Shown: in pieces, positions 4,547 through 60,800 of the stretch
How the letters are laid out: each line of letters begins with the position of its first letter
Position numbering within the stretch: position 1 is the stretch's first letter
Source: Plumapathes pennacea
Lineage: Eukaryota; Cnidaria; Anthozoa; Antipatharia; Myriopathidae
Reading direction: 5' to 3'
NCBI GenBank assembly: GCA_964036295.1
Contig: OZ038470.1
Location: 7,041,578-7,105,577 of the forward strand
Length of the DNA stretch: 64,000 nucleotides
Made by a program: the position numbers and the translations under genes
Notes under the pieces: model-generated
What the model saw: only the letters and a program-made list of their open reading frames with translations
What the model was told of the DNA's origin: nothing
The model's database searches: none

Positions 4547-5111
4547 AATGTTGGTTCACTGTCGGCATGACTGCTGAACTACCACTTGGATTCTCGTGAT
4601 AATCAGACCAGCTGTTCTCAGTTTCCAAGCTTGACGGACCACAATTGTTACTTTCAACGTTTTTCATGGCGAATTGTGGGCGTTTTACGTTGCCTTACTA
4701 TACTGTTAGTATCACTTAAGCACATGGCAATAGTAGTAACTACGGTTCGAAGATGCTTTCTGCAAGTGAGTAAGTTACAAGGACAATGGACCGAATATAA
4801 AACAGCTATGAATGTATAATAAAAGCTGGGTAATCAATCTGTCCTACGTTCTTTTAGGGTTGGGAGATTGGGGATTAGTTAATTAGGCTTACCTTTAAAT
4901 CTTGTCCAGGATTTTGTTTGGTTTTGGATATTAACTCGTTCCGAGAGGCATTCTGGGAAGTAGTGTCACGTGACGGCACGCAGCCCAGAACGGAAGCGAG
5001 GCTAGTCGATATATGTCAAGACGTAAACAGTATTTTGCAACCTCGCCCACTTCATGCCGGTTATTTCCTGCCTCACAAACAGAACCATTACTGCGATCTC
5101 GACCCAAAAGC
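4547..5111. other. Upstream region of DIP2
   Basis: This is the 5' flank of DIP2. The last 100 bases before the ATG are more GC-rich and carry no in-frame upstream ATG that I could link to the coding frame. No clear TATA box is visible, which is usual for broadly expressed genes. The transcription start was not identified. Confidence 0.35.
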
Positions 5112-8100
5112 ATGGCGGAGCCTCCTGAATCCAGCCTGCCACCTTCTGTTTTAGAAAAGCTTCGGGAACTCAACATTGAGCTTACGGAAGGTGAGTGGAG
5201 GAGCAAAGGGTCGATGTCTCTGGGGTTTTTGGAAATCTCACAAAAATTGACTGTTACGCAGATTATGTTTGCTCTCTCTATAATCTGATTTAGATGCATT
5301 ATCCTTTCATGTTTGTCCTGTAACCTGGACCAGCATTGTCATCGAGAAACTTTGGTTTTATTGTATTTTGTTCGTTCTGGATCAGTAAATTCGAAATTAT
5401 GCGAACTATGATGGCTGTAGCAATATTCCGGTTCAGGCAGGCAGATATTTAGTAATAGGTCACTCTGAATTTGTTGTAGGACTTTTCGTAAGACATAAGC
5501 CGACACATCATACGTCTTTAGGTTTTTTCCCGACTGCCTTTCGTGTGTACATAGCACAGTATTTGTCGTGTGTTTATGTTGTAAAATAAATATATTTGAA
5601 TTTGACTTTTGATCTGTGTATTTATAATGTTCCCGATGTCTTTCATTCCAACGAATCTGTAGAATTTAATTTCATATGTCGTCGTATCAGGGTGTAGTTT
5701 CACAAAGAATGGCTGTTCGAAGCACCAGATAAGTTGACCGGTGCATTTGATAGACAGGAATATGTGTAGTGCCAGTATTTCGCAGTTTACTGTTTTCTGA
5801 TTGCAGTAGTTATTGCAACAGTTGGGGGCAATTATTCACAAATCTCATGTTTTATTTTGACAAACAAACTTGTGTCATCACAAAGCATATGAACACATTT
5901 ATTGTTATATATGGTTTGTTTTCAACATTATTGTAGCACGTACATAAACTGTACAGACTGTTACTCCTCGTGCTACTTGGTCTCATTCCTATTACTTTTG
6001 TCAGCTCATGCATTAATGGTGAGTCTCATGAGCACAATATTTTGATAAGAGATGATGTGTTTTTGCGTGTGCACATAAAAATATTGCATTATCATCTATA
6101 CCGGCCCATATGTTCATTCTGCTATTAAAATTATTATTAAATGCAAATAATTTTGAAATAATATATTGTGTTGCTTGCTGCCCTTGACGTCTATAAACTT
6201 AATGTTGCATGACTTGTCTTAACCTCACTAGGAGAGGTTCATGTATTGTGCATATACAAGCATTAAAAAATTGTATCAATATACATATTGATGATGATGC
6301 ATTTATCTGTACGTGACACAGGAGACATAACACAGAAGGGCTATGATAAAAAGAGAGCTAAACTCCTGGCTCCCTATCAGACCAGAGGTAAGGCATGTCA
6401 TATGTACTTCAAGAGTTTCTGACTTCAGTTTACTTTATGAACCAATCAACAAGAATTATACTTATTTACTGGTGTTCTAATATTATTATAATTGTTCAAA
6501 GAAAGCAAAGAATCTAAAGGTGCACACATGAACTGAATGCACTATTACAGCTGTCAAAGCTATTGACATACTACAGCCCACATGCAAACATTGGTGCATG
6601 TGTAAACTTGGCTTGATGTTTGGATTGATTGTTGTTAGTATTTTTCTTGCTTTAGATACAGGTATTGGTTCATCCAGCAGCCCGGTAATTCAACATTATG
6701 CCAACTCAGGTAAGTCGAGATGTTGGTCACAACATTCAACAATAGCTGAATGGTCAGTGTCTCTATAAAGTATGACTTAGTTAATCTCATGATTTCTGTA
6801 CATCACTGGAAGTAGAGACAAAAAACAAAAACAGTTACTGTTGGGGACATTGGGTTTATTTGTGATTAATTAATCAGATCTGTGGTTATTATCTCGCAGC
6901 CCAGAGAGCAGAGGCTATTGCCGCTGCCCTGGCCAAGAGGAATGCTAATCAAGATCCAGATATGCCAGTTCCCTTTAAACGTCAATCCCTCATTCGTAGG
7001 GGGCCACTTGAAAATGGGACTCGGGTTCAGCAGTACGGCGGTGTGTTCCTTATGTTCTGATATAGTCTTTGTCTAGTTTACTGTGTAATTGAGTGAAATT
7101 AGAAAAGATAGGTAATCAAGATGTGGAGGGTGTACAGTAGATTTACATTAAGTACATACCTGTCCTTGTTTTCAACCTAAGGTTCTGTATCATCTCAAGA
7201 TTCCTTGGGACGTAATCTTGGAGCTGAATACACCCCACCAGATTCTCCCATGATGCGAGGTGTAACAAGTTCCATGACAGATGAATTCCCACCACCACCC
7301 ACATCTGAAGATCTGCAAAACCTGGGCAGACACAGTGGAGGGAGCTACTCTTCTCTGCCAGCACCGCCTGACATAACCAAAAAGTTCCCCAGTCAAGCAA
7401 CAAACACGCCTTCTATATCATCTATGCGCACAATTGAACAGGATGATAAGGAGGCTTCTGGTGAGGGGATAGTTTTAGTGTCTACTGTGCATGCGCATGT
7501 AGAAACTAATATACAATAAAACTATTTATTATATTGACACGAGTGTTTTACTGAAAAATATACCGTGCATAAAATCCATATGAAACTACACCCGGGACCC
7601 GAGTGGTATATTTTCCATATCCTCACTAGTGAGGATATCGTTGGCATCATTTCCCGCTTTTGCACGGTTGTTTGTGCAATTTCTCGTAAAACACTCATAA
7701 TAAAAAGAAAATTACACGGCGGCTTGAAGATATGGATTTTATTTTCTCGTGGTAAAAAAAATATTTTACTCACGAAGCGCTCGTTCGTAAAATATAATTT
7801 TTACCACTCGAAAATAAAATTCATATCTTCGTGCCGCCGTGTAATATCCTCTATATAAAATGTAATAAAACTATAATAAAAACCATATTAACTGCACAGA
7901 AAATATCCACCACTATTCACCTCCACTTCGGCAAATAATTGTTCATTATTTTGTGTCTTTTTGTTTTAGCTTCAAGCAGCCGGGTCTCTGCCAAAATACA
8001 GCAGCTCCTAAACACTCTCAAGGTAAGTTGGTGCTTTTACAACAAACTGGAAAATACAGGCAAATTGAAGGTCTGAAATTCCCTCTCATGGCAAGCCGCA

Positions 8101-8640: not shown

Positions 8641-11600
8641 TTTGTCATACTGTAGCAACCAAACCTGACCCCAATGCTCCCAAACCTGAAGGTCAGACCC
8701 TGAAGCCAGTGGGTGGAGAACAGATGGATGTGAGTGTGATTAAGTATATATATTAAATTATCTTGACCACACGGAAAGCAAGTCACTCTTGTCAACCTAA
8801 AGTAACTTGCTTTTTCCTTGTTCAGCTAATATTGTTCATAGAAATGCTTAAAAAATCATATGGCAAGTTGGTTAATTTTATGATGAAGAGAATAAACAGT
8901 AGAATACTATGCATCTTTATAGATTGCACAATACCTGCCAAAGAGTTTACTGGAAGCCCTCCTGACATTTGGTAGTAAAAACCCAAAGACTCCCTTCTTC
9001 ACTGTTGTTGACAGTCATGGAAAATCCAGCTTCACATTAACCTATGGTACGTATTCAGATACTTCCAAGACAAGAGTTTCTTCTGTAATACTAATACATG
9101 CTCATTCTATATGATAAGCGCTTCAGTTATACAAGATCTCATCCTAATTCATAGATTGGACTCTTATTTCAGGGAAATTGTTGTCAAGAGCAATGAAGGT
9201 TGCATATGCGTTGTTAAACAAAGTTGGAAGTCACAAGGAGGGAACATCAATCATGATCGGTGACAGAGTAAGTGGAATACTGCAAGACAATGATTTAAGA
9301 CAGACAGACAATTTAAGAGGCTAATGGACATTCAGACAATAATAACCACCTGACAGGTGATCAAAAAATGGGGAGAAAAAAAAAAGATAACACTATGAGA
9401 TGTACAAAAGCAACAATTTATCAACTGATGGGAATGAAAGTGAAAATGGTGTTGTATGTGTCTATTCTAATGTAGATAAATCAATAAATTAAGACATCAA
9501 CTTACATGTAGAACAGCAGCTTGATTGACTCTTGTTCTTTCAGGTTGCCCTGGTTTATCAGCTGGATGACCCCATAAACTTTATCACTAGTTTTTATGGG
9601 TGCCTGATGGCCGGAGTCATTCCTGTTCCTGTAGAACCTCCAGTTGGCAAGGATGTAAGTACAAGCAGCTCATATTACAGTCTGCAAGTATAATCACCAT
9701 GTTGTTATAATCTTTGCAATGTGTTTCTCAGTTTCCAGGTTGTAAGCAGATTGGATTCTTATTGGGTAGCTGCAGTGTATCATGGGCACTCACATCAGAC
9801 GTTTGTCTGAAAACCCTGCCAAAAGACGAATCAGGACACTTGTGCACATTCAAAGGTTTGTCTGACTTCGAGATGCTTCACCTCAGTTATGCTAAGTTTT
9901 CCATGACCAAGGGATAACATTTTGTGACAAACTTCTACTTTAATTTAATAAAGGCTGGCCCAAGCTCCAGTGGTTTTCAACTGAAGGTCTTGGCAGACCC
10001 CCGAAAGACTGGCAGGCTCCCAGTTCCCTGGACAGGGCCTCACCGGCATATATTGAGGTACAGAACTTAATTTTGCTGCTGTCAACCAGTCAACCATGCA
10101 TTTCTGATCAGAAACAGAAAAATACAGTGTTCATGTTGAACATGGAATTGATGAAACTATTCACTTTTTCAAGTCAACAACAGGTAAAGACGGAGCTGTG
10201 ATGGGTGTGACCGTCACTAGGCACAGCATGGTCCTACACAATCAGGTTCTCAGCACGGCATGCACCTATGCAGAGGGTAAGAGTCATGATCACCATCACC
10301 ATCAATGTATCTACATATCGAGACAATAAACATTAAAATACAAAAAAAAAAAAAGAAAAAAAAAGATCACCATCACAGTCTGCAGTGTGTTGGGAGGACC
10401 TTCTTAGGCATGGCCTAAGCATTCAAAAAAAAAAAAAAAAAAATCAGTGTTTGTGGAGTTATTACATGCAGCTACATGGCTGACGTGTACCAGTGGACAG
10501 TACTGAATCCATAACTCGATAGACGCACGCTAAGCATGAACCAATTCTTAAATGTTGTTGTCTCATCCTTGTCAGGTGAAATCATGGTCAGTGTGCTTGA
10601 TCCCAAGAGGGAAGTTGGACTTTGGCATTCAGTGATGGCTGTAAGTACAATAGTATTCACACTTCCTTTCTTCAGACATTACAACATGTTTATTATTGGT
10701 CAGTTGACATATTTCTGTCTCATGATTGGTCAGTTGACGCATTTACTGTCTTATGATTGGTCAGTTGACATACTTACTGTCTCATCATTGGTCCGTTGAC
10801 ACATTTGATGTCTCATTCTCTCTTCAGAGTGTGCTGAACGGGTTTCAAGTCATATTTGTCCCTCCATCAGTACTGAAGAATTCACCTGCAATGTGGCTTC
10901 AAATGGTCACAAAACATCGAGGTGGGCTGGCCTGTTCACGTTCCTACTGAGGAAAATGATTAAACTGCTCACTGTTAAAAGATCGAGATTTATATGATGT
11001 GATTTAGAGAGTCGTTACTATGATAAATCAACTAAAAGTCAATGTGGGGAAGATACCCGCCGTTAAAGAAGTTTGAGTTGACGTTTCGAGTGTTAGCCCG
11101 TCGTACAGTCAACAGCTTTGACATGCTAGAATTCAGTGTTGTGTTGCTTTACTTTGCAGCATCCTGTGCCTTGGTGAGCTCCAGGGATCTACACTGGTCT
11201 CTCCACGCAAGTAAAGATCTTAAAGACATCAACCTTAGCACGCTAAGACTACTGCTTCTCGCCGACAGAGCAAGTCCATGTGCGTATAGCGGCCTTCACT
11301 CATTCTCTAATTGCTTGCTTGTATGTAGCACTCATTTGTTCCTCTCTGTTTCTGATTCCCCGATCAGGGTCACTGTCCGCTTGTGATGCGTTTCTGAACG
11401 CCTTTGAAGGCAAGGGTCTTAAGCCCGAGGCTCTCTGCCCGTGTGCCAGCTCCACTGAAACCATGACAGTTGCGCTACGAAGGTCAGTGTTTTGTCTTCC
11501 TTTTAAGTCTGGGCCCGGTTTTTCGAAAGCCGATTAAGCTAATCCAGGATTAACGAAATTCTTTCTCTCGACCTCTCTGCCAATAAACTGCAGGGTTTTG

Positions 11601-14600: not shown

Positions 14601-17600
14601 ACAGGGAAAAGTATAGATTACCATTCTATCAGCTTCATGATCTGCAGATTACATCTCGAAGGCAAAAAATGAGCAATGATTAAAACGTGTTCCTTCTGTT
14701 TGCCGCATGCGCAGTACCAGTTCTTGGCTGAAATTCTAAAGTGGCGTGCCCAGGCTACCTCGGATCACGTACTCTTCACTCTGTTAAACTCCAAGGTACG
14801 AATCACAGATGAGCTTCCTTTATCTATCATCTTGCTTTTTTTGTTGTTGTTGTTCTTTTATTTCTGTGTTGCCTTGTTCCAGTGTTCCAGTGTCCTATGT
14901 TCTGCTTTATTTGCAGGGTGCTGTTGGTTCAACACTCATTTTCCTTTATTTCTGTGTTGCCTTGTTCCAAGTGTCCTATGTTCCGCTTTGTTTGCAGGGT
15001 GCTGTTGGTTCAACACTCACTACATTACAGCTTCACAAGCGAGCAGAGCGAGTGGCGCAGCTGGTGATGGGAACAGGCAAACTGTCATCTGGCGACAACG
15101 TCGCCCTCCTCTTTTCACCTGGAATCGATTTTATTGTAGCAGTGTATGGGTGCCTATACGCAGGTAAGTCATCAAGCGCTTCACGCTTTGAGAAAAATGT
15201 CAGTGGACACGCACTTGGCGATACATCGTACATATCAACTGGTTTGACCAGTTTGACTTGTTTTCTGTCTCTTGTCTCTCCCCAGGTCTAATCCCAGTCC
15301 CCGTGCGTCCTCCGCACTCCAACAACATCTCGTCCAGTCTCCCGACGGTCAAGATGGTGGTGGACATCAGCAAATCCCGCGCACTCCTCACAACGCACAA
15401 CGTCGCTAAACTGTTCAAGACCAAGGAAGCCGGCTCGGTAGTCGACAGCAAATCCTGGCCGGTCGTGATCGAAGTTGACGACGCTCCGAAAAAGAAATTG
15501 AGTAACCCATACCGCGCACCCACACCGGAAATGATCGCTTATATTGACTTCAGTGTGTCTACCACGGGGTCCCTCTCGGGAGTGAAGGTACCGTTAACGT
15601 CTTCTCTTCTGCTGTTTGAGCAACTCGTAAGGAGAACCCGACTGATAAGCTTGGTATTTTCCTCTTTTGTTTTGCTCTTGTGAATCACAGATGTCACACG
15701 CGGCCGTTACGGCGCTGTGCCGCTCCATGAAGCTCGCGTGTGAACTCTATCCGTCACGTGACATCGCCATTTGCCTGGACCCGTACTGCGGACTGGGTTT
15801 TCTTCTCTGGTGTTTAGCGGGGTAAGCATGTCTCTCCTGGATAACACCTGACCATCTTTGTATTCTTCTTGTCTTTCCATTGTTCGCTCTTGTCATCACA
15901 CCATATTTTTGTTGTTTTCCAGTGTTTACTCTGGTCATCACATCATATTTTTGTGGTTGTTTTGTTGTAGTGTGTACTTTGGTTATCACACCTTTCTGTT
16001 GTTGTCTTTTCATTGTTTACTCTGGTCACCACGCCTTGCTATTGTTGTTTCCAGTGTTTACTCTGGTCATCACACCATCTTTTCGTGGTTGTTTTGTTGT
16101 AGTGTGTATTCTGGTTATCAAACCATATTTTTGTTGTTTCCAGTGTTTACTCTGGTCATCACACCATCTTTTCGTGGTTGTTTTTGTAGTATGTACTCTG
16201 GTTATCAAACCACATTTTTGTTGTTTTCCAGTGTTTACTCTGGTCACCACACCATCTTGATTCCGCCTGGGGACCTGGAATCGAACCCTGCGCTCTGGTT
16301 GGCAGCGGTATCTCAACACAAAGGTCAGGCGTAAACCCTGCATTTATTACTAATGTTCGTACAGACTTTAAACTGTAGCTGCTGTGCTGATAGGATTGTC
16401 CTTTCTCTTCAGTTCGGGACACGTTCTGTTCTTATCCTGTCATGGATCTCTGTACTAAGGGGCTGGGACAGGCCATCCCGACTCTGAAGGTGAGCAGTGC
16501 CAATGTATTGTGATCCACCTCGATTTTCTCCTTCAGTTTCTCACCAGAAACATATAATACAGTGGGGAGAACTTGGCTTTTGATACCTTGCTAAGATAAA
16601 AGCTGATTAAAGTATCACTAATTCTCACTGCATTATTGAACATGTGTCTTCACCTGCAGGCCAAAGGCGTGAACCTGGCTTGTGTACGCAACTGTGTCGT
16701 GGTGGCTGAAGAGCGGCCCAGAATAACCCTGACCACGGCGTTCTCTACTCTGTTCTCTGGACTTGGTTTGTCTTCACGAGCGGTCAGCACTTCCTTTGGC
16801 TGCAGAGTCAACGTCGCCATTTGTACACAGGTCGGTCACGAGCGAGCAAAACAACTACATACGGGCCGTGTGACTCGTGTGCACGCATGCGTGCTTTTGT
16901 ATACGTTGTGTATGACTCATGTAATGATTTATATGTAGTGACTGGTAGACTTTGGGTTAGTCTGGGAAAAGGTGTACATGAAATCAGTTTCTTTTCTGAA
17001 AAGTGGTTATGGTAGTATTGAGACATTTTTCTCTAAAATAGTATTCAGCTATGAACGTTTTCTTACTGTTTCTCTCCTTTGGCTGCTAGGGTGCATCGAC
17101 TCCTGAAGCGTCAAGCGTCTTCGTAGATACGCGAGCTCTCAGAAACGACAGGTAGGAACTTCACACCAGTCCAGCTCCGTCTTGTCTGTTCGCGCATCGC
17201 GCACCACGCTTGACTCCAGGAAGGATATTGCATTGTGGGGGTTTCTTTTCTCATCGTTCTTGTTTATCATATTCCTTTGCAGAGTTACTCTTGTTGAACG
17301 CGGGAGCCCGAACAGTCTGTGTCTTCTTGAATCAGGAAAGGCAAGTGCTGAACTGTTTTGTACTAAAAGCTATTCTGTGACGTTAATGTCGCGTGTTCAG
17401 AAACCGTGCGCAACAAGCCTCGCTTACGTGCATTATGCCCAAGTCCAGACCTGCATCTGTATAACAACTGTTTCTACTTCATACGTTCCTCCGTTTTTTG
17501 GCCGATCTTTCTAAGTGGTCCTTGTGTTTCTTTAGATCCTTCCAGGCGTCAAGATTGTGATTGCCAATCCAGAAACGAAAGGAATGTGTGCCGACTCCCA

Positions 17601-22921: not shown

Positions 22922-23921
22922 ATCTTACGGGGTCCCGCTAGTAGACAATAATATACAATAGACTGTAATTGTTTAATTTGGAAAGCAGTGGCCGGATATT
23001 TTCTACTTTAATAGCCTTCAAAAAGCAAAAGCATTTTAACCCGGTTACATTTTATCCTTGAATACAGTGTGCCAACAAACGCGGCGACAAAACTTCACAG
23101 CATGTGTCAGACTGTCAGTGAAATTATGCAAATATGTCAGGAATCGGATGACACAATCTTGCACGAAGTCACTCTGAAATAGCTTTGAAAACTAGCGAAA
23201 AGATCACAGTATAATCCTACTTGGCCTTCATCACAGTTCCCGGGGCATCAAACGACAAACTATACGGCAATTGTTGAAATACCATAATGATAACACGACC
23301 GTCATTTAACAAAAGCGTTGTACGTTAATTGATGTAAATTTTCAAAACTCACCGGTTCCTGAAAGCCATAGCTTTAGCTCTTTTCCAGCAAAGGAAACAA
23401 AACCCAAAACACTATTGTTTACGTCTTCAATGATTTCAAAGTACACTGTATAGAGCAGTCCTCATACAGTACGAAAATTCCACTTTCCATTGTATTGTGT
23501 GTCGTCATCTTGTCAAACTTGGATTCTGAAAACTACATTCCTGTTATTGTAAAAGGTGAAATTTGCCACGATGATTGTTCGATTTCCATCACTGTATTTT
23601 GCTATTTCTTTCTGAAGAAGTGTCTGCGTTTTAACACAATACTGGCGTCTGGGATTGTGTTCAGGTGGACCAGTTGTGCCTTCAAGAATCCGTTTCACGG
23701 CTAGTAAGCTTGCCTCCCATACACCGGCAAAATATCCGGGCAAATTACAGCCGTCCGTCGAACTGCTTGGCCTTGTATCTGCATCTTATTGTACAAAATC
23801 ACTTCCGTTCGTACTCTTACAGCTACCGCATGTCACTAAGAAAATGGCGGTTTACAGTTAAGCTGCCGATGTAACCTCGCAGTGGTCGCTCGACGCGGAT
23901 GGCCCTGGGGACGAGTCGTAC

Positions 23922-48842: not shown

Positions 48843-51800
48843 TTAGTTGTCTTCACCTTCATTCTTCTCTCCTTCAATTTTGTCTCTGGCAAACTCACCC
48901 AAAGTGTCGTCAGGTTGGACAGCTTCCTGCAAAGTTACCACAAACAACCAAATCAAGATACAAAACTGAAATTGATTCCTTGTTCCCGTGACTGCTTCCC
49001 TAACAAGCACCTTCTAGTCACAGCAGGTCCATAACAATGACGTTATGATAAGGACTCCTGAGATAATCTTACCTGCTCCATTTGAACTTGTGGCTTCTTT
49101 TCTTCGTGAACCATTTCGAATGGCAGTGGTTCAGAATATTTAAACAGAATTTGTGCCAGAACCTCACGGAACCTAACAGAAGGCTCTATTTCTTCTGCTT
49201 TGAGCTTGTGATACACAGCTGAGGCTGATTTGGGATCTTGAAGAGCATCTGATGAAACAGGACAAATTTAAATATTGAGTAAGAAATAGAAAGGAATAAA
49301 AAGGAACCCCCAACCTCCAGCATAAAACTATGACAGTGCAACAGACATTGGGATCTGAACATTAAAACAAACACTCGTTACACTTTCATACTGACCATAA
49401 GCTCGGATAAGAGGAATAGAGAGTGCCCCATAGTTGAGCCCACGTTCCTTCATATACTCCATGCAATTGAGAACTGCAGTAACCTGCAGGAAAACAAGCA
49501 ATAATGTAAAGGGACTGTTTCCTCTACCTCGCATTCCTTATCAGTGAAACAAATACAGAGACATAGTTGCCAATATTACCTCCCCTCTTGCTGCTGAGCT
49601 CCCAGAAAGCTTGATGAACTCACTGTTGTCCAACTGTACTTGATGTTCCTGATTAAGTTTACAGAACAGTCCAAGACCACCGTTATCATAAAGGCAATTA
49701 ACGTCCTACCCCTGTAGGCTTCTGTACAACATAACATTCTAATCAAAATTCAAGGACTTCTCAAGGACATTTTTTTCAAAGACTGAAAAATTACCTGTTT
49801 TGCCTAGAAAAAGAAGTTAACATTCTTTAAATATTTTTAGTTTCTTAAAAGATTCTTGTCACCTGACTGCACCTGAACAGTCTTCAAAGCTGTTCTTCAA
49901 CAGTGTTTGGCTTGGTAATCAAATTGCCGGTCCATAAAGTTCTGCATTGATTCAACCTCTTCTAATCAATTATTACTTAGAAATTCATGACCTTGTCAAG
50001 GACTGCTGTCCAAACTCTAGGGTGTTCAAGGCCTCATACAAATTCAAGGACTTTTCAAGACAAGCAGTTGAATTCAAGGGCTTTACAAACCCTGCACTGC
50101 AACACAACACAAACTGACAATAGAGAACTCAGAAGGCATTGTAATAGATGCTGTGAAGGTGAATGAAACATTTAACAAAAAAAATGCATGAAACATTTAG
50201 ATTTCAAACCTCTAACAGTTGTGCTGCTAAATCCTTTTTGCCTGCATGTACACATCCAAAGATGACACCCTGAAGGAACTGCATCCATGTGGCACTCTTC
50301 AAATGCTCTACTTTGTTGGCCAACATGTCTTGTAAAGCTGGAAAAACAATATCAACAAAATATAAATAAATGCAAACAAAATGATTTACAGTTAACTCCC
50401 TTTTAACAGACACTCCTCTGAGACCAACACCTCTCTCAAGACGGACACCATACGTTTCTTCAGTCATTTCCTCTGTAGCTGAACTCTCCGACGGACACCT
50501 CTCTAAAACGGACAGTTGGTTGACTGTAATAGCAAATTCAATATCTCACCTTCTTCAAAGCGGTCCATCTTTCCTGTCCTAGCCATTGTGTTGAGCAACA
50601 GGAAACATGTGCCATTAGTGGCATACAAGCCAGCCTCTTTGCACTCCTTGAGTGCGTCCAGGGCTCCTTCAATGTCCTCCCTAGAGAACAAGAACTACAG
50701 CTTCGAACTTGTTGTTGCAATTGTCACCAGACACCATCACAAGAAATAAAAGAATAAAGGACATTACATTGACCTACAGTAAAGCCACATTTTCACTCAC
50801 TTGATCAGGTAGGTTGAGAGAATTTGTGAGTAAGTGAAGGAGTTGATTGAAATGTTCTTCTCCTTCATCTCTTGCAAAAGTTGCCGCTGACAGTCATGGT
50901 CACCTGCAGAAAATGAATTACATTCACATCATTCACATCACCCTTAGTAAGTGACAAAAGAAACATTACACTGAAAAATTGGAGATGACCTCCCTAATGT
51001 CACTTCATGTCTATGATATACATTCAGCAAACATTTCTTGCTGTTCCCAAATTGACTCGAGTGCGATTTTGCACAATCAAATAAATTTATAAAGTATTTT
51101 ATTCCTATTCTGGAAAAAGCCCAAAAATTGCAATTATTGCAATATAACAGCATGCTTAGGACATGCACATGTGTGGCAGTCAATACCTTCCAGAGTTTCT
51201 ATGCTTCTTAAAAAAACTGTCCTCTTTTTGTCAGCTTACCATGGAACTTGTACACAGCAATCATCTGATTGTACACAAAGGACGACACTGACTCATTATT
51301 CCTCCTCATGTTGTCAAAAATCTCTTTCACCCCTGCAAGTAAAGTGAAGATCTTATATTGTTCCTTTATTTTAAACTAATGCACCCATCCAATCTAGTCC
51401 CACTGTACTTACTAGCTGATGCCACCTACTGAATAAACACTTCCTCAGAGCAGTTGAATCTCCTCGCTGATGATATTTAGCTCTCATGTACTCTGTTTTA
51501 GTAGTAAAACTTACTTGCTATGTCTCCTCACTGGAAGAGCTCTCATGCACTCTGTTTTAGTAGTAAGACTTACTTGCTACATCTCCTCGCTGGGAGTAAG
51601 CTCTCATGTACTCTAGTAAGACTTACTTGCTACATCTCCTCTCTGGAAGAGCTCTCATGTACTCTGTTTTAGTAGTAAGACTTACTTGCTATGTCTCCTC
51701 GCTAGGAGTAAGCTCTCATGTACTCTAGTAAGACTTACTTGCTACGTCTCCTCGCTAGGCGTAAGCTCTCATGTACTCTAGTAAGACTTACTTGCTACGT

Positions 51801-54800
51801 CTCCTCGCTGGGAGTAAGCTCTCATATACTCTATTTCAACCTTGTATTCCTGTGATCCAGGCCCATACAAACTGTTAGGACAAAAAATTTTAAAAAGATA
51901 ACTTTTTCATCTTTTGCAGTGATTCTTGGTTATCCCTTATTTTGTTCCAGAAACAACACAGTTCCAGTGAAATTTTGCTATTTTTTAACAGACAGTATTT
52001 TTGCACTGAAATTGCCATATACTGTAAAATTCTGTAAAATAAGCCCCCCCCCCCCAAAAAAAGACCCCTAAATAGTAATCACAAAAAAATAAATCCAATA
52101 TTATAATATATTGGCCACCCGCTCCCCATACATGAAAAACATCCAATGGCCAATGAATGTTGTTGCTATACTCTTGATGTTTAATCGCAAAACATGAAAA
52201 TAAATCCTCCCAGAAAATAAGCCCAACAAAAGTTCCATTGCCCAAATAATAATACTTACAAAATAATATTAATAATAATAATAATAATAATATATAATAT
52301 ATAATACTTATTTTTACAAAATTTATGGGTAACCTGGCACATTCCAGTGCAATGATACACAATAGCGTCAGTCACCTTTTGACAGTCTCTGCTTCTTCCA
52401 CTCTTCCCAACAAAAGGTTGGCTATGATGACAGAGGACACTGCTCGGGGACTGGGCCTGAGTAGACACACCAACAAACAAAATGAGATGCAACTTGGGAG
52501 TTGGCACTGCTTCATAACACACTTACTGTAATTTAGGTTTGAGGAATTCTGATTAAACAAACACAACTTACTTTAAACCATCTCTTTTCATAAACTCATA
52601 CAACTGATGCACTCTGTCCAGATTCTGCAAGAAAGAGACTTTGTTTAAATTTAGGCCACAATCTGGGGGTGACCCCAAGGGTTTGCAGGGGTGCTTCCAT
52701 TGCTTGCTCATGTGCTCAATCGTCACGGATCACTTGCTTACATAACAAGTCCGGGCAAATTTTCACCCCTTCCACCCTCTCCCCCTGGTATGTATGTCTT
52801 GCAGTAGTTTTCCACTGATATTCAGTGTGACTGGTGCCGTGGTGTTGGGGGTGTGGCAGGGTTGCCATGGATACCTCCTTGCTAGGTTGTTAATGCTATT
52901 AGGCAGCCCCTCCCTTCCCTAGGCACCTACCCCCAGGCTTATCTGGATGATGAGTTTAAAAACAGATATATATAATATCTAAAAGTACACTAAAAACTAA
53001 CTAACTGAGATCAATGCTGTGGCATCAGCTAAATAAAACAAATCACATACTCTGACTTTTGGTGGAACTGAACTGGCTGGTAAGAAACCTCCATCTGAAG
53101 AGTTGGCATATGCATTGATTAGGTGTGAATACATCCGGTTGTCTGGTTCCTCAAGTTTCTGTTCCAAAAAGACAAGTTAGACCAATGTTACTTAGCTAAA
53201 ATAATATAATGTAACTCCTTGCAGTGTTTTACAGAAATAGTGCATGGATAATGCAGGTAAGGAATAAAATATAATGAAGAAAAGTAAGCAAGGGAAAAAA
53301 CAGAAAGAACATGGGGTTAGATGATTTATCTTCGGCTGAGTGGAGCGAAGCATAACAAAACAGATGATAAATAGTTTCTCGAATTCCCAAACAAGAGGAT
53401 GGAATGTGTGCAAATATTTAGTGCAGAAATGTGTTGAAGCTTGTGTAAATATTTGCGTTATGCATAGGCGTGCATATGCAAAGGATGCTAGTATATTAGA
53501 GATGATTAAGGTTAAGAGAGTCATTGTGGTCTACTTACTCGAAGCAGACAGGTTCAATTTAATTTTCTTGTTTGAGCGGAAAAAGTACATGTACAAAGAA
53601 TAATGAATATGATTAAATGGGCTAAGCTTTGCGTCTGCTAGACCCGCACCGCAACCTTGTGTGTCAGTGTTTGGTGCGGGATATTCGAGAATTGGTGATA
53701 ATATTACCTTGAACTTATCAAAGCAGAACTGGGCTGCTTCAGCTTTTCCTTCAAAGGCAAGAAGCTAAAGAGAAAAACAAAATCATCAACATTGTGAAAT
53801 ACAGCAATCTGATATATCAATCAATATTATTCCAGTGCTCCCAGATGACTATTTCCACCTCGGTCAATCCCTGGGATTTGTCAGACCTGGTTGGCCCAGA
53901 GATGAAAAATTTGCATGGCAACTGTAAAAATTTTATAGATAAATAGTGGGAGAAAGGGTGAATTGTCAGTTTTTCCTTGCCCAGGAGGAAGGGACTAGTT
54001 GTTGGCCCAGATAACATGCTGGGGTCCGTTACCTTGATCATTTGTCGATACTGGTGTTGGTCCAGATCAATTCTGTGTTGTTTCATGATCCTGATAAACT
54101 GACAAGATAGAAGTGATTAATGACAATATTATATATTACTATTATATTATTACACACAAAACACAACTTTAAACTTAAAAAATACACTCACTTCATAAAA
54201 CTCTTCTGTCAGTTTATGTCTGTTTAGCCAGTGCAGCATTGAGGTGTATGTCCGTGAATCAATGCAGTCTGCCAAGCCCTGGAAAACACAAACAAACAAA
54301 AAACACCAATGGTAAGTACTCAGGCATGCACTAGTAATATCAGTCATTACTTTATATGGTCCACAGGGATTGCTTTAGTATGAAGATTAGAAAAAGCTGC
54401 TAAACTAGTTGTAGGACAATAACTAAAAGTAAACAAGTAAAAATAAACAAGTAAAGTAAACAAGCAAAACAAGGCATACTTCTTCAAGCAGTGAGGTGAT
54501 GAACTTCAGGACCTCCTTGGTTTTATCATGTTTTTGGCAAACTTCTTTTACAATTTCATTGATTACCATAGCTGCAGAGGCATAAAGGAATAAACATTAG
54601 TATACAGCAACATTATTTTGTTACTTATACTGTATATCAAACACTGGTAGAACCAGTTCAGAATCTCTGCTTGTTGGAGGAAGCATGTTTACAACCTCTG
54701 CCGAGATGCGGCAACTGCAGATCAAGGATAAACCATCATTGACATTGCCTCTTTTTTTGAATGTTTAGACTGCAAATTAAACATCAGCTTGGCACTCTGA

Positions 54801-57800: not shown

Positions 57801-60800
57801 CACAAATTTACTGTAATTTCTCACTGCAAGACAGCGTGGTATCCAGTCTATATTCCCGTAAAATAAATAGCGCATGTTCGCAGCATCAACAAACTTGATA
57901 GTCTGCAACAACGAGAAAAGTTGTCTATTACACCGAGCGCGCCATAATCTCAGTCTCCGGGCAGTGCGATTAGAGTCCAAGCGAAAATTTTAGACAATCT
58001 AAATGGTGAACCATCGTACGAAAGAATTCAGCCTGTTGTCAGCACGATGCATGAACAAAACCAGAGAGCCTTATTTGTGTCGGCTAGCTCTTGCGTGACT
58101 CGGATTTTCGTCGGAATGCTTCCGATGAAAGACTTATCTGATGACTATGAAGTTACAAAGACCCGATTCTCGGACCCGTTCATCGGACCCGTTTATCGGA
58201 TCCGATTCCGATGCAAACGGCACCGATTTGATCGGGCGGACCCGATATACGGATCGGAAATATTATATTTCCGATTGGAGTCAATCGGTCGGACCCGATC
58301 CGATATTTGGAAACGTTCCCTTATTCACATTGCTTATTTTTGTACCAAACAAATAACAAGCCGATAGGACATTTTTATGTTCCTGCCACATTTTGTTCTC
58401 TTTTGAGGAGGTTTTCTTCTAAAAGTATTTTAATGACGTCCGCCATACGCACAAAACATATTTATGCAAATCTAACTCAATTCTTTGGGTTATCAAATTT
58501 CACCACGCTACGCGAAAAGTTGACAGCTTGATTTTCAGTCGATGTGCAAGACTACAGGTCAGTGTTTTAAGATTTGTATGCAGACAGATTTCGACCGTTT
58601 GTCATATTAAAAGTGGTGTCGTCGTGATCGATAAAAGGTGTGCACGTCGCGATAAACTGAGCTGCTCGAACAGCCAGTGGTTTACAGTAACATTTGATCG
58701 AATATTTTTTCAGTCACACTCGCATTCTAGGATTTAACCCTTAGAAATTGTACTACTTTTTTCGTGTCGTATGCGACAGAAAACCAAATCACGGAGTGAT
58801 TTTTTATTCGTGTCGTAAGCGAAAGTTGCAACGCGTAAATCGGGCTTTACCAACGCGCTATCAGTGGTGAAGGATCAGTGTCGGGTTTCCGCTTAGCGGG
58901 TCGCGTTCCGAAAAGAGTCGCTTGTCAATTAATTTTTCGAGTGCGTCCAAGCGGACGCACTTGCTGGAATTTTTTGCGTCCAAATTGAGATTTGTGCGTC
59001 CCAGGACGCAATGACGCGCTCTGGATACAACACTGAGTCAGCTGTATGTAGTTCAGTATGGAGAAAATGAAAGGTGATCTCTTGTTTGGGTTAAGAGTGA
59101 TCAGAGACAAACTTCTCCTTTCAATACACAGTCAGCTGTATGTAGTTCAGTATGGAGAAAAGGACTGGTGATCTCTTACTTGGGTTCATGCTGGTCAGAC
59201 CATCAATTGTATCCTCCTAACACTAACTCATACATTTCACTCAGGGCAGGTTGGAAGAATTAGGTGATTTCTTCCCTGGATTCAAGCTGGTCAAACTATC
59301 AATATTCTCTTTATACTGATACTCACACAAAGATTTATTGTGGGCTGGGAGAATACAGAGCTTCAGGTTAACCGTTTCACTCCTGAGAGTGATCAAGTTC
59401 AATTTTCTCCTTCATTCTCTCCCCAGAGACACATCACACAGTATGGAGAATTTGCTACTTGATAGTTTGCTTAGATAAAAGTTGATTGGCCTATCAATTC
59501 TCACTACATTACTCATACATTTTCTTCTTGAATGGTTGGGAGAATTTGTATTATGAGCTCAGGAGTGAAAGGGAAAGCACTCACCAGCAGCATCTCCCTT
59601 GTTAGCATACATGGCCAGGATAGGATAGAAGTAGTGGATTCGAACTGTCATGCTCTGAAATTCAAACAAATATCACATTTTACAACTAGAATTTGTAGTC
59701 TAATCATTTATATGTATGTACATCTGTATATCTATATTCCAATCTACAATCCCAGACAAAAAGATCTGAGACACATGACAAAAATGTTTCATGTATAAAT
59801 TGACAGTGTCTTTCATAGCCCCATCAAAAGTTCACACAGACATTCAGTCAATAATAGATTCTACCCCTCCTCCTATTCTATGTTGAAAAGTAGGTACAAG
59901 GCAAATGTCTTACTTCTTTGTCCAGCCAATTGTCAACATTATGAAGGGAGGGGAGGGGGTGTATGCTCAAGGTCTTGTAAGACCTTGTTGTTTTTTCTGG
60001 GATTGTAGTCCCAATAGATATAGCAATAACAGCAAGCTTTCAAACCTGTGCCTTCATTTCTTGAATCAATGCCAAGCTTACTTCTACAATGAAAGGAATC
60101 AGATGACACCACTTAAGTAAATAGACATTTTTTTGTTAAAAGGCAAAAACAAAAAGCTTGAAAGCATCAAAGCATCTTTACTCCTGACCTGGAATATTTT
60201 TTGAGTAACTGAGATCCACAGCAGTCTCAAACACATTCTTCATCATGCCCCGTTTGTTCAGCTCCTTTGTGGCCATAAGGACCTCATCTACAGGCTGAGA
60301 AGCAGACAACGACACAGGGCTTAAATTAGTTCTTATCCTGGAGTCCCAGACAGCTGCAAAATGTGCTTGGGCAACCAAAATTTCACACTGTACATTGATG
60401 CTACAGTAGAACCCTGCTATCTTGAACAGAATCTGATTTCCCTCAGATATGAACTCGGTAAAGATTTCCCATGGTAGAACCCGCTATCTTGAACAGAATC
60501 TGATTTCCCTCAGATATGAACTCGGTAAAGATTTCCCATGGTAGAACCCGCTATCTTGAACAGAATCTGATTTCCCTCAGATATGAACTCGGTAAAGATT
60601 TCCCATGGTAGAACCCGCTATCTTGAACAGAATCTGATTTCCCTCAGATATGAACTCGGTAAAGATTTCCCATGGTAGAACCCCTCTATCTTGATCCCCT
60701 AATATCTTGAACTATTTCTCACTTCCCCTAAGAGTTCATAGCGAGGTTCTACTGTACTTTTCAACATTATGAAATCAAACAAAAGAGGTGTGGGTAACCA

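Follow-up and report, generated by a model that had tools for sequence, protein, structure and literature searches.

A minisatellite spanning a 3′ splice site in a DIP2-like gene is probably a mirage

Introduction

An intron of a gene with an AMP-binding domain is filled mostly by copies of its own 3′ boundary, i.e., of the acceptor together with the first part of the exon that follows. This locus raises the question of whether such an array is maintained as a set of alternative acceptors, or whether it is a minisatellite that happens to span a splice site. We analysed the array in the window, by which we mean the whole 64-kb stretch of DNA under study, and then in wider scans of the same genome. 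The coordinates of the features are collected in Table 1.

The gene, which we take to be DIP2 and call DIP2-like here, gives a joined translation that matches the Pfam AMP-binding family (E 5.8e-34) as well as solved adenylate-forming enzymes, including fatty-acyl-AMP ligases, with the best match to 7r7f (deposited as polyketide synthase, E 4.9e-23).

Table 1. Positions in the window of the exons, the intron and the boundary duplications discussed in the text
Feature	Position	Strand	Details and basis
Exon 5′ of the array, ...CLDPYCGLGFLLWCLAG	15691..15821	+	Donor GG/GTAAGC at its end; gene model chain and sequence
410-nt intron, mostly array	15822..16231	+	Sequence
Minisatellite, nine boundary copies (8 upstream and the real one)	15861..16258	+	Spacings 42, 48, 43, 41, 48, 41, 46, 42
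309-nt open stretch, first AG-bearing copy to real acceptor	15923..16231	+	103 residues in exon frame
Real exon (VYSGHHTILIPPGDLESNPALWLAAVSQHK), within the AMP-binding domain	16232..16323	+	Gene model, Pfam, structure matches
Second boundary duplication, DIP2-like gene, upstream intron	14857..15018 (limits approximate)	+	Acceptor and exon start doubled once
Third boundary array, PPR-repeat gene, end of exon 51792-51871 and donor GTAAGT	51479..51836	-	

Anatomy of the array

At 410 nt, the array intron compares with a median of 156 nt for the modelled introns of the DIP2-like gene (n = 45). Every repeat unit combines intron sequence, in the form of a T-rich tract and the acceptor position, with ~27 nt of exon. 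The initial annotation had described eight copies of the exon start upstream of the real one, and a repeat search recovered all of them along with the real boundary, nine copies in total with spacings of 41–48 nt. The upstream boundaries end at 15880, 15922, 15970, 16013, 16054, 16102, 16143 and 16189, and the real one ends at 16231. The fourth of these boundaries required correction: it is 16013, which lies 218 nt upstream of the real acceptor and out of frame. Tandem Repeats Finder (TRF) gave the array in five overlapping rows with periods of 41, 42, 89 and 132, e.g., 15887–16255 with period 41 and 8.4 copies. An inverted-repeat structure was ruled out as a reading of the array, since a search of 15700–16500 found 0 pairs.

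The AG is kept in six of the eight upstream copies (15922, 15970, 16054, 16102, 16143 and 16189), as had been annotated, and is replaced by AT at 15880 and 16013. Listing every AG of the intron gave these six repeat acceptors, the real one and the AG of the donor GTAAG itself (ending 15826), and none besides. The AG-bearing copies lie 309, 261, 177, 129, 88 and 42 nt, respectively, from the real acceptor, and all of these distances but the 88 nt of copy 16143 are multiples of three. The five in-frame putative acceptors would add 103, 87, 59, 43 or 14 residues to the protein, so that both the distances and the insert sizes given earlier are right.

Within the intron, a single stop interrupts the exon frame (15849); it lies upstream of every AG-bearing copy, and the frame is thus open from each of these copies to the exon, in agreement with the initial annotation. 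The second forward frame of the intron has its only stop at 15823 and the third frame has four, showing that openness is not peculiar to the exon frame.

Copy types and growth of the array

The copies fall into types A, B and X, arranged in the order X-A-B, X-A-B, A-B, real, so that the types recur as blocks. The six AGs are therefore not independent of one another. Ungapped identity over 47 nt ranges from 55 to 91% among all pairs, reaching 91% for A2/A3, 85% for B1/B2 and 91% for A1/real. At the edges of the array, the outermost copy X1 is 55–74% identical to all other copies, and the real copy is 91% identical to A1. Simple stepwise growth does not explain this pattern of similarity, in which the closest copy to the real boundary, A1, is no neighbour of it.

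When the array DNA was searched in the 290-Mb genome, one place matched among the best candidates scored, namely the window, and the protein of the gene region gave five matches among the best candidates scored, all within the window. Given the single DNA match and the confinement of the gene matches to the window, we rejected a dispersed or paralogous origin of the array.

Frame, openness and coding constraint

A naive binomial calculation gives 0.018 for an in-frame position of at least five of the six copies with AG, a value that treats the copies as independent. When the observed unit lengths were drawn randomly, at least five in-frame spacings out of seven, as observed for the boundaries 15922–16189, occurred with P = 0.12. 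The open exon frame had P = 0.52 under random unit draws and 0.275 under dinucleotide shuffles. Comparison of the exon-derived codons with the real exon gave 17 distinct changes, of which 5 are synonymous and 12 nonsynonymous, where 26% synonymous changes are expected without constraint. The sequence that a functional alternative acceptor array would insert thus shows no visible coding constraint (5/17 synonymous, 0.26 expected), although weak constraint would escape detection because few changes and sites were sampled.

The initial annotation had held that an array keeping acceptor, frame and openness is hard to dismiss as intron noise. The part of this claim that stands concerns the copies themselves: they are copies of an exon start, they carry six ordinary or high-scoring acceptors, and five of these could extend the exon in frame. 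The part that does not stand is frame and openness beyond what a minisatellite gives, in view of the P values above, the second open frame and the proportion of synonymous changes; selection on both properties as an established fact was dropped. The array itself is beyond chance; for frame-keeping beyond chance, the case is weak.

Acceptor strength and the insertion point

Acceptors were scored with a position matrix trained on our own gene predictions and partly on the array sites. The scores are 9.5 for both 15922 and the real 16231, 8.6 for 16143, 6.4 for 16054, 5.8 for 15970 and 16102, and 5.4 for 16189. The upstream array acceptors thus span 5.4–9.5, as compared with a mean of 5.3 for the modelled chain, which includes doubtful exons. 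Because 15922 scores equally, the choice of 16231 is unexplained by acceptor sequence alone. Judged by these scores, the silence of the upstream acceptors would not be self-evident and is not to be assumed, 15922 being predicted to be as strong as the real one. A normal protein nevertheless requires the last AG (16231), since the intact exon is found only past the last copy.

The insertion point, LWCLAG/VYSGHH, falls in a region that is ungapped in the two alignments to the acyl-AMP-ligase-like chains 7r7f and 7r7e, suggesting that 14–103 added residues would probably disturb the fold.

Elsewhere in the gene, a 31-nt array of 4 copies (10695–10816) sits in the intron just 5′ of the modelled exon 10828–10921, stopping 11 nt short of the acceptor without spanning it. 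This modelled exon resembles the exon of the boundary array and is located in an upstream AMP-binding-like domain.

Other boundary duplications in the window

The window holds two further boundary duplications. First, in an upstream intron of the DIP2-like gene, the duplicated AGs end at 14916 and 14997; the 81 nt between them keep the frame and contain no stop, and use of the earlier AG would add 27 residues. Second, 35 kb from the DIP2-like array, a gene that matches Pfam PPR families (presumably LRPPRC-like) has six GTAAGT donors, at 51791 (the real one according to the model), 51738, 51685, 51626, 51573 and 51514, in steps of 53–59 nt. Use of the extra donors would extend the exon by 53, 106, 165, 218 or 277 nt, of which one is a multiple of three and four are out of frame, and an in-frame TAG occurs at nt 12–14 past the junction. 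Frame and openness are therefore not required for such arrays here, as the donor array, most of whose extra copies are out of frame, runs into a stop straight away.

Of the 126 boundaries modelled for the DIP2-like gene and the PPR gene together, three have a tandem copy of the boundary, scoring 39.5–43.0, whereas swapped flanks under a distance rule gave 6 matches of at least 14 (maximum 15.0) over 40 replicates of 126; without the rule, flanks could reach the same array (1.55 matches per replicate). The 126 boundaries are those of 63 of the 134 chain exons (37/69 DIP2-like, 26/65 PPR), the count having left out low-scoring exons, the first 20 exons (5′ part) of the DIP2-like chain and five chain exons inside arrays. 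Tandem copies also occur at interior positions of both genes (58 of the 749 positions sampled, with many of them lying within the same three arrays), and boundaries are dense in the DIP2-like span, at one per ~170 nt. For these reasons, we claim no special targeting of boundaries.

The window also contains a 67-nt array at 60406–60694 (4.3 copies, 98% matches by TRF), which looks younger than the other arrays.

Wider scans

The gene models used throughout, in the wider scans as well, are home-made and over-predict exons. The codon model was seeded with eight pieces, three of them in the wrong frame (4, 2 and 1 stops), and was later retrained on its own predictions. At scores >12, the predictor gave 310 exons vs. 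320 in reversed sequence (before overlap removal), and at scores >15 it gave 172 vs. 78.

In 264 kb of C9, 619 boundaries were predicted, and 15 of them carried 19 matches of at least 14, vs. 0.6 per control replicate (5 replicates). Five of these 15 boundaries belong to exons scoring >15, namely the three arrays of the window and the donors 7159882 and 7182044. We rejected the former donor, at which the open frame continues past the predicted site and a partial duplication follows, and the latter, which looks like a dispersed repeat. The remaining ten lie on low-scoring predicted exons and were left uncounted; judged from the match rows only, they are ordinary minisatellites and one apparent whole-exon duplication. 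The scan of C1 and C4 covered 80 kb, where 96 predicted exons scoring >12 gave 13 matches, none of which was accepted as a mirage: those on C1 are apparent whole-exon duplications, those on C4 are repetitive open frames, and the one viewed in sequence, at L027 9401, was rejected because it looks like a hairpin element. The three accepted boundary arrays thus cluster in the window, with none further in the 264 kb of C9 and the 80 kb of C1 and C4.

Three side observations were made in other parts of the genome. An apparent tandem exon duplication, with copies ~560 nt apart, lies at L028 ~5030–5600 (C1:5015030–5015600), in a gene that we take to be a caspase from its appearance. At C9:6964955–6965190 (script positions 23378–23613), a simple gene finder reads the units of a 77-nt minisatellite as small exons. 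On C24 (4629–6872), the profile matches of a mitochondrial-type COX1 are split by 854 nt (5131–5984), with overlapping profile positions 264–279; an 818-aa open frame surrounds two of the three matches, and the first match holds one TAA, perhaps running into an intron. This split suggests an intron in COX1 and makes a lancelet an unlikely source of the genome; the animal could plausibly be a coral or an anemone, or else a relative of sponges.

Interpretation

We read the array as a mirage, i.e., a boundary-spanning minisatellite produced by near-neutral tandem amplification, in which the outermost acceptor is used and the earlier copies drift as intron, and we give this reading a probability of about 0.78. 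The repeat unit spans the exon–intron boundary, and the splice dinucleotide occurs in many but not all copies. The steps of this account that are seen directly are the anatomy, the block structure, the lack of visible coding constraint and the two further boundary duplications in the window. The array would have arisen when a short segment that chanced to include the 3′ splice site, with the polypyrimidine tract, the AG and ~27 nt of exon, was duplicated in tandem, and duplications of whole blocks, seen as repeat spacings of 132 and 89 nt, would have enlarged it, the probable cause being replication slippage or unequal exchange. The last AG would stay in use and the earlier copies would become intron, where drift may account for the two copies without AG, for the out-of-frame boundaries 16013 and 16143, and for exon-derived codons that appear freely changed. 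Predominant use of 16231 would be favoured by exon definition (a 92-nt exon with its own donor), which we invoke since the acceptor sequences of 15922 and 16231 score equally and so do not separate the two sites. It is possible that upstream acceptors are used at a low level, giving minor in-frame isoforms.

Weak selection against aberrant splicing is an unlikely alternative, in which upstream acceptors would be leaky and out-of-frame copies would be purged via message decay, producing a bias toward multiples of three although no isoform would be useful. Both acceptor duplications are indeed mostly in frame (five of six AG-bearing copies, and the 81-nt copy). However, two acceptor arrays provide few independent spacings, and copy 16143 retains a strong AG (8.6) despite being out of frame.

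We consider it distinctly improbable that the array provides functional alternative acceptors, with 14, 43, 59, 87 or 103 residues inserted into the AMP-binding domain and with frame and openness under selection. Such a function would fit the five in-frame, stop-free copies, the upstream acceptor scores relative to the chain mean, and the neighbouring 81-nt duplication, which is likewise in frame and open. However, frame and openness also fit the weaker nulls (0.12; 0.28 and 0.52), the copies lack visible coding constraint, the insertion falls in a region ungapped relative to two solved acyl-AMP-ligase-like chains, AG is missing from two of the eight copies, and another keeps its AG but out of frame. 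A mirage that serves as a ladder of in-frame acceptors, with graded isoforms carrying 14–103 mostly hydrophobic residues in the adenylate-forming domain and a copy number that differs from one individual or cell to another, would be very improbable. Wrong expansion of a short repeat during assembly is extremely improbable: tandem arrays are error prone, and one lancelet mirage is reported to appear aberrantly assembled in a genome draft (PMC3087553), but the copies here mutually differ (55–91% over 47 nt) and were found at one place in a 24-contig assembly with one contig of 42 Mb.

Comparison with known systems

Arrays of this kind would offer natural experiments on spliceosomal choice between acceptors that are almost the same, on intron lengthening and on whether out-of-frame copies are purged. 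NAGNAG-type tandem acceptors also present several candidate AGs to one donor, with in-frame choices. The DIP2-like array resembles them in offering several candidate AGs for one donor and in-frame options, whereas its AGs are tens to hundreds of nt apart, minisatellite-made and predicted from sequence. Intron gain in Drosophila by tandem duplication of a proto-splice site (PMC2891723) likewise creates new candidate splice sites; the DIP2-like array, in contrast, makes no new intron and lengthens an existing one.

The closest parallel is given by the mirages of lancelets, described for Adh3, troponin C, the globins BflGb6 and BflGb9, and PGBD5 (PMC3087553, PMC3902484). There, mirages occur at both boundary types, the copies carry splice signals, the length differs between haplotypes, and regular splicing was undisturbed in the cases tested. 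The arrays of the window are alike in being minisatellite-like tandem duplications of an intron–exon boundary, 3′ or 5′, with AG or GT in many but not all copies. The DIP2-like array differs in lying in a genome whose split COX1 argues against a lancelet, in its spacing of 41–48 nt, in its eight extra copies and in having most AG-bearing copies in frame and open. The titles and abstracts listed in searches of open-licence literature included no report of boundary-spanning minisatellites outside lancelets. Three boundary arrays in 64 kb of a probably non-bilaterian animal genome would suggest that mirages have a wider origin than lancelets.
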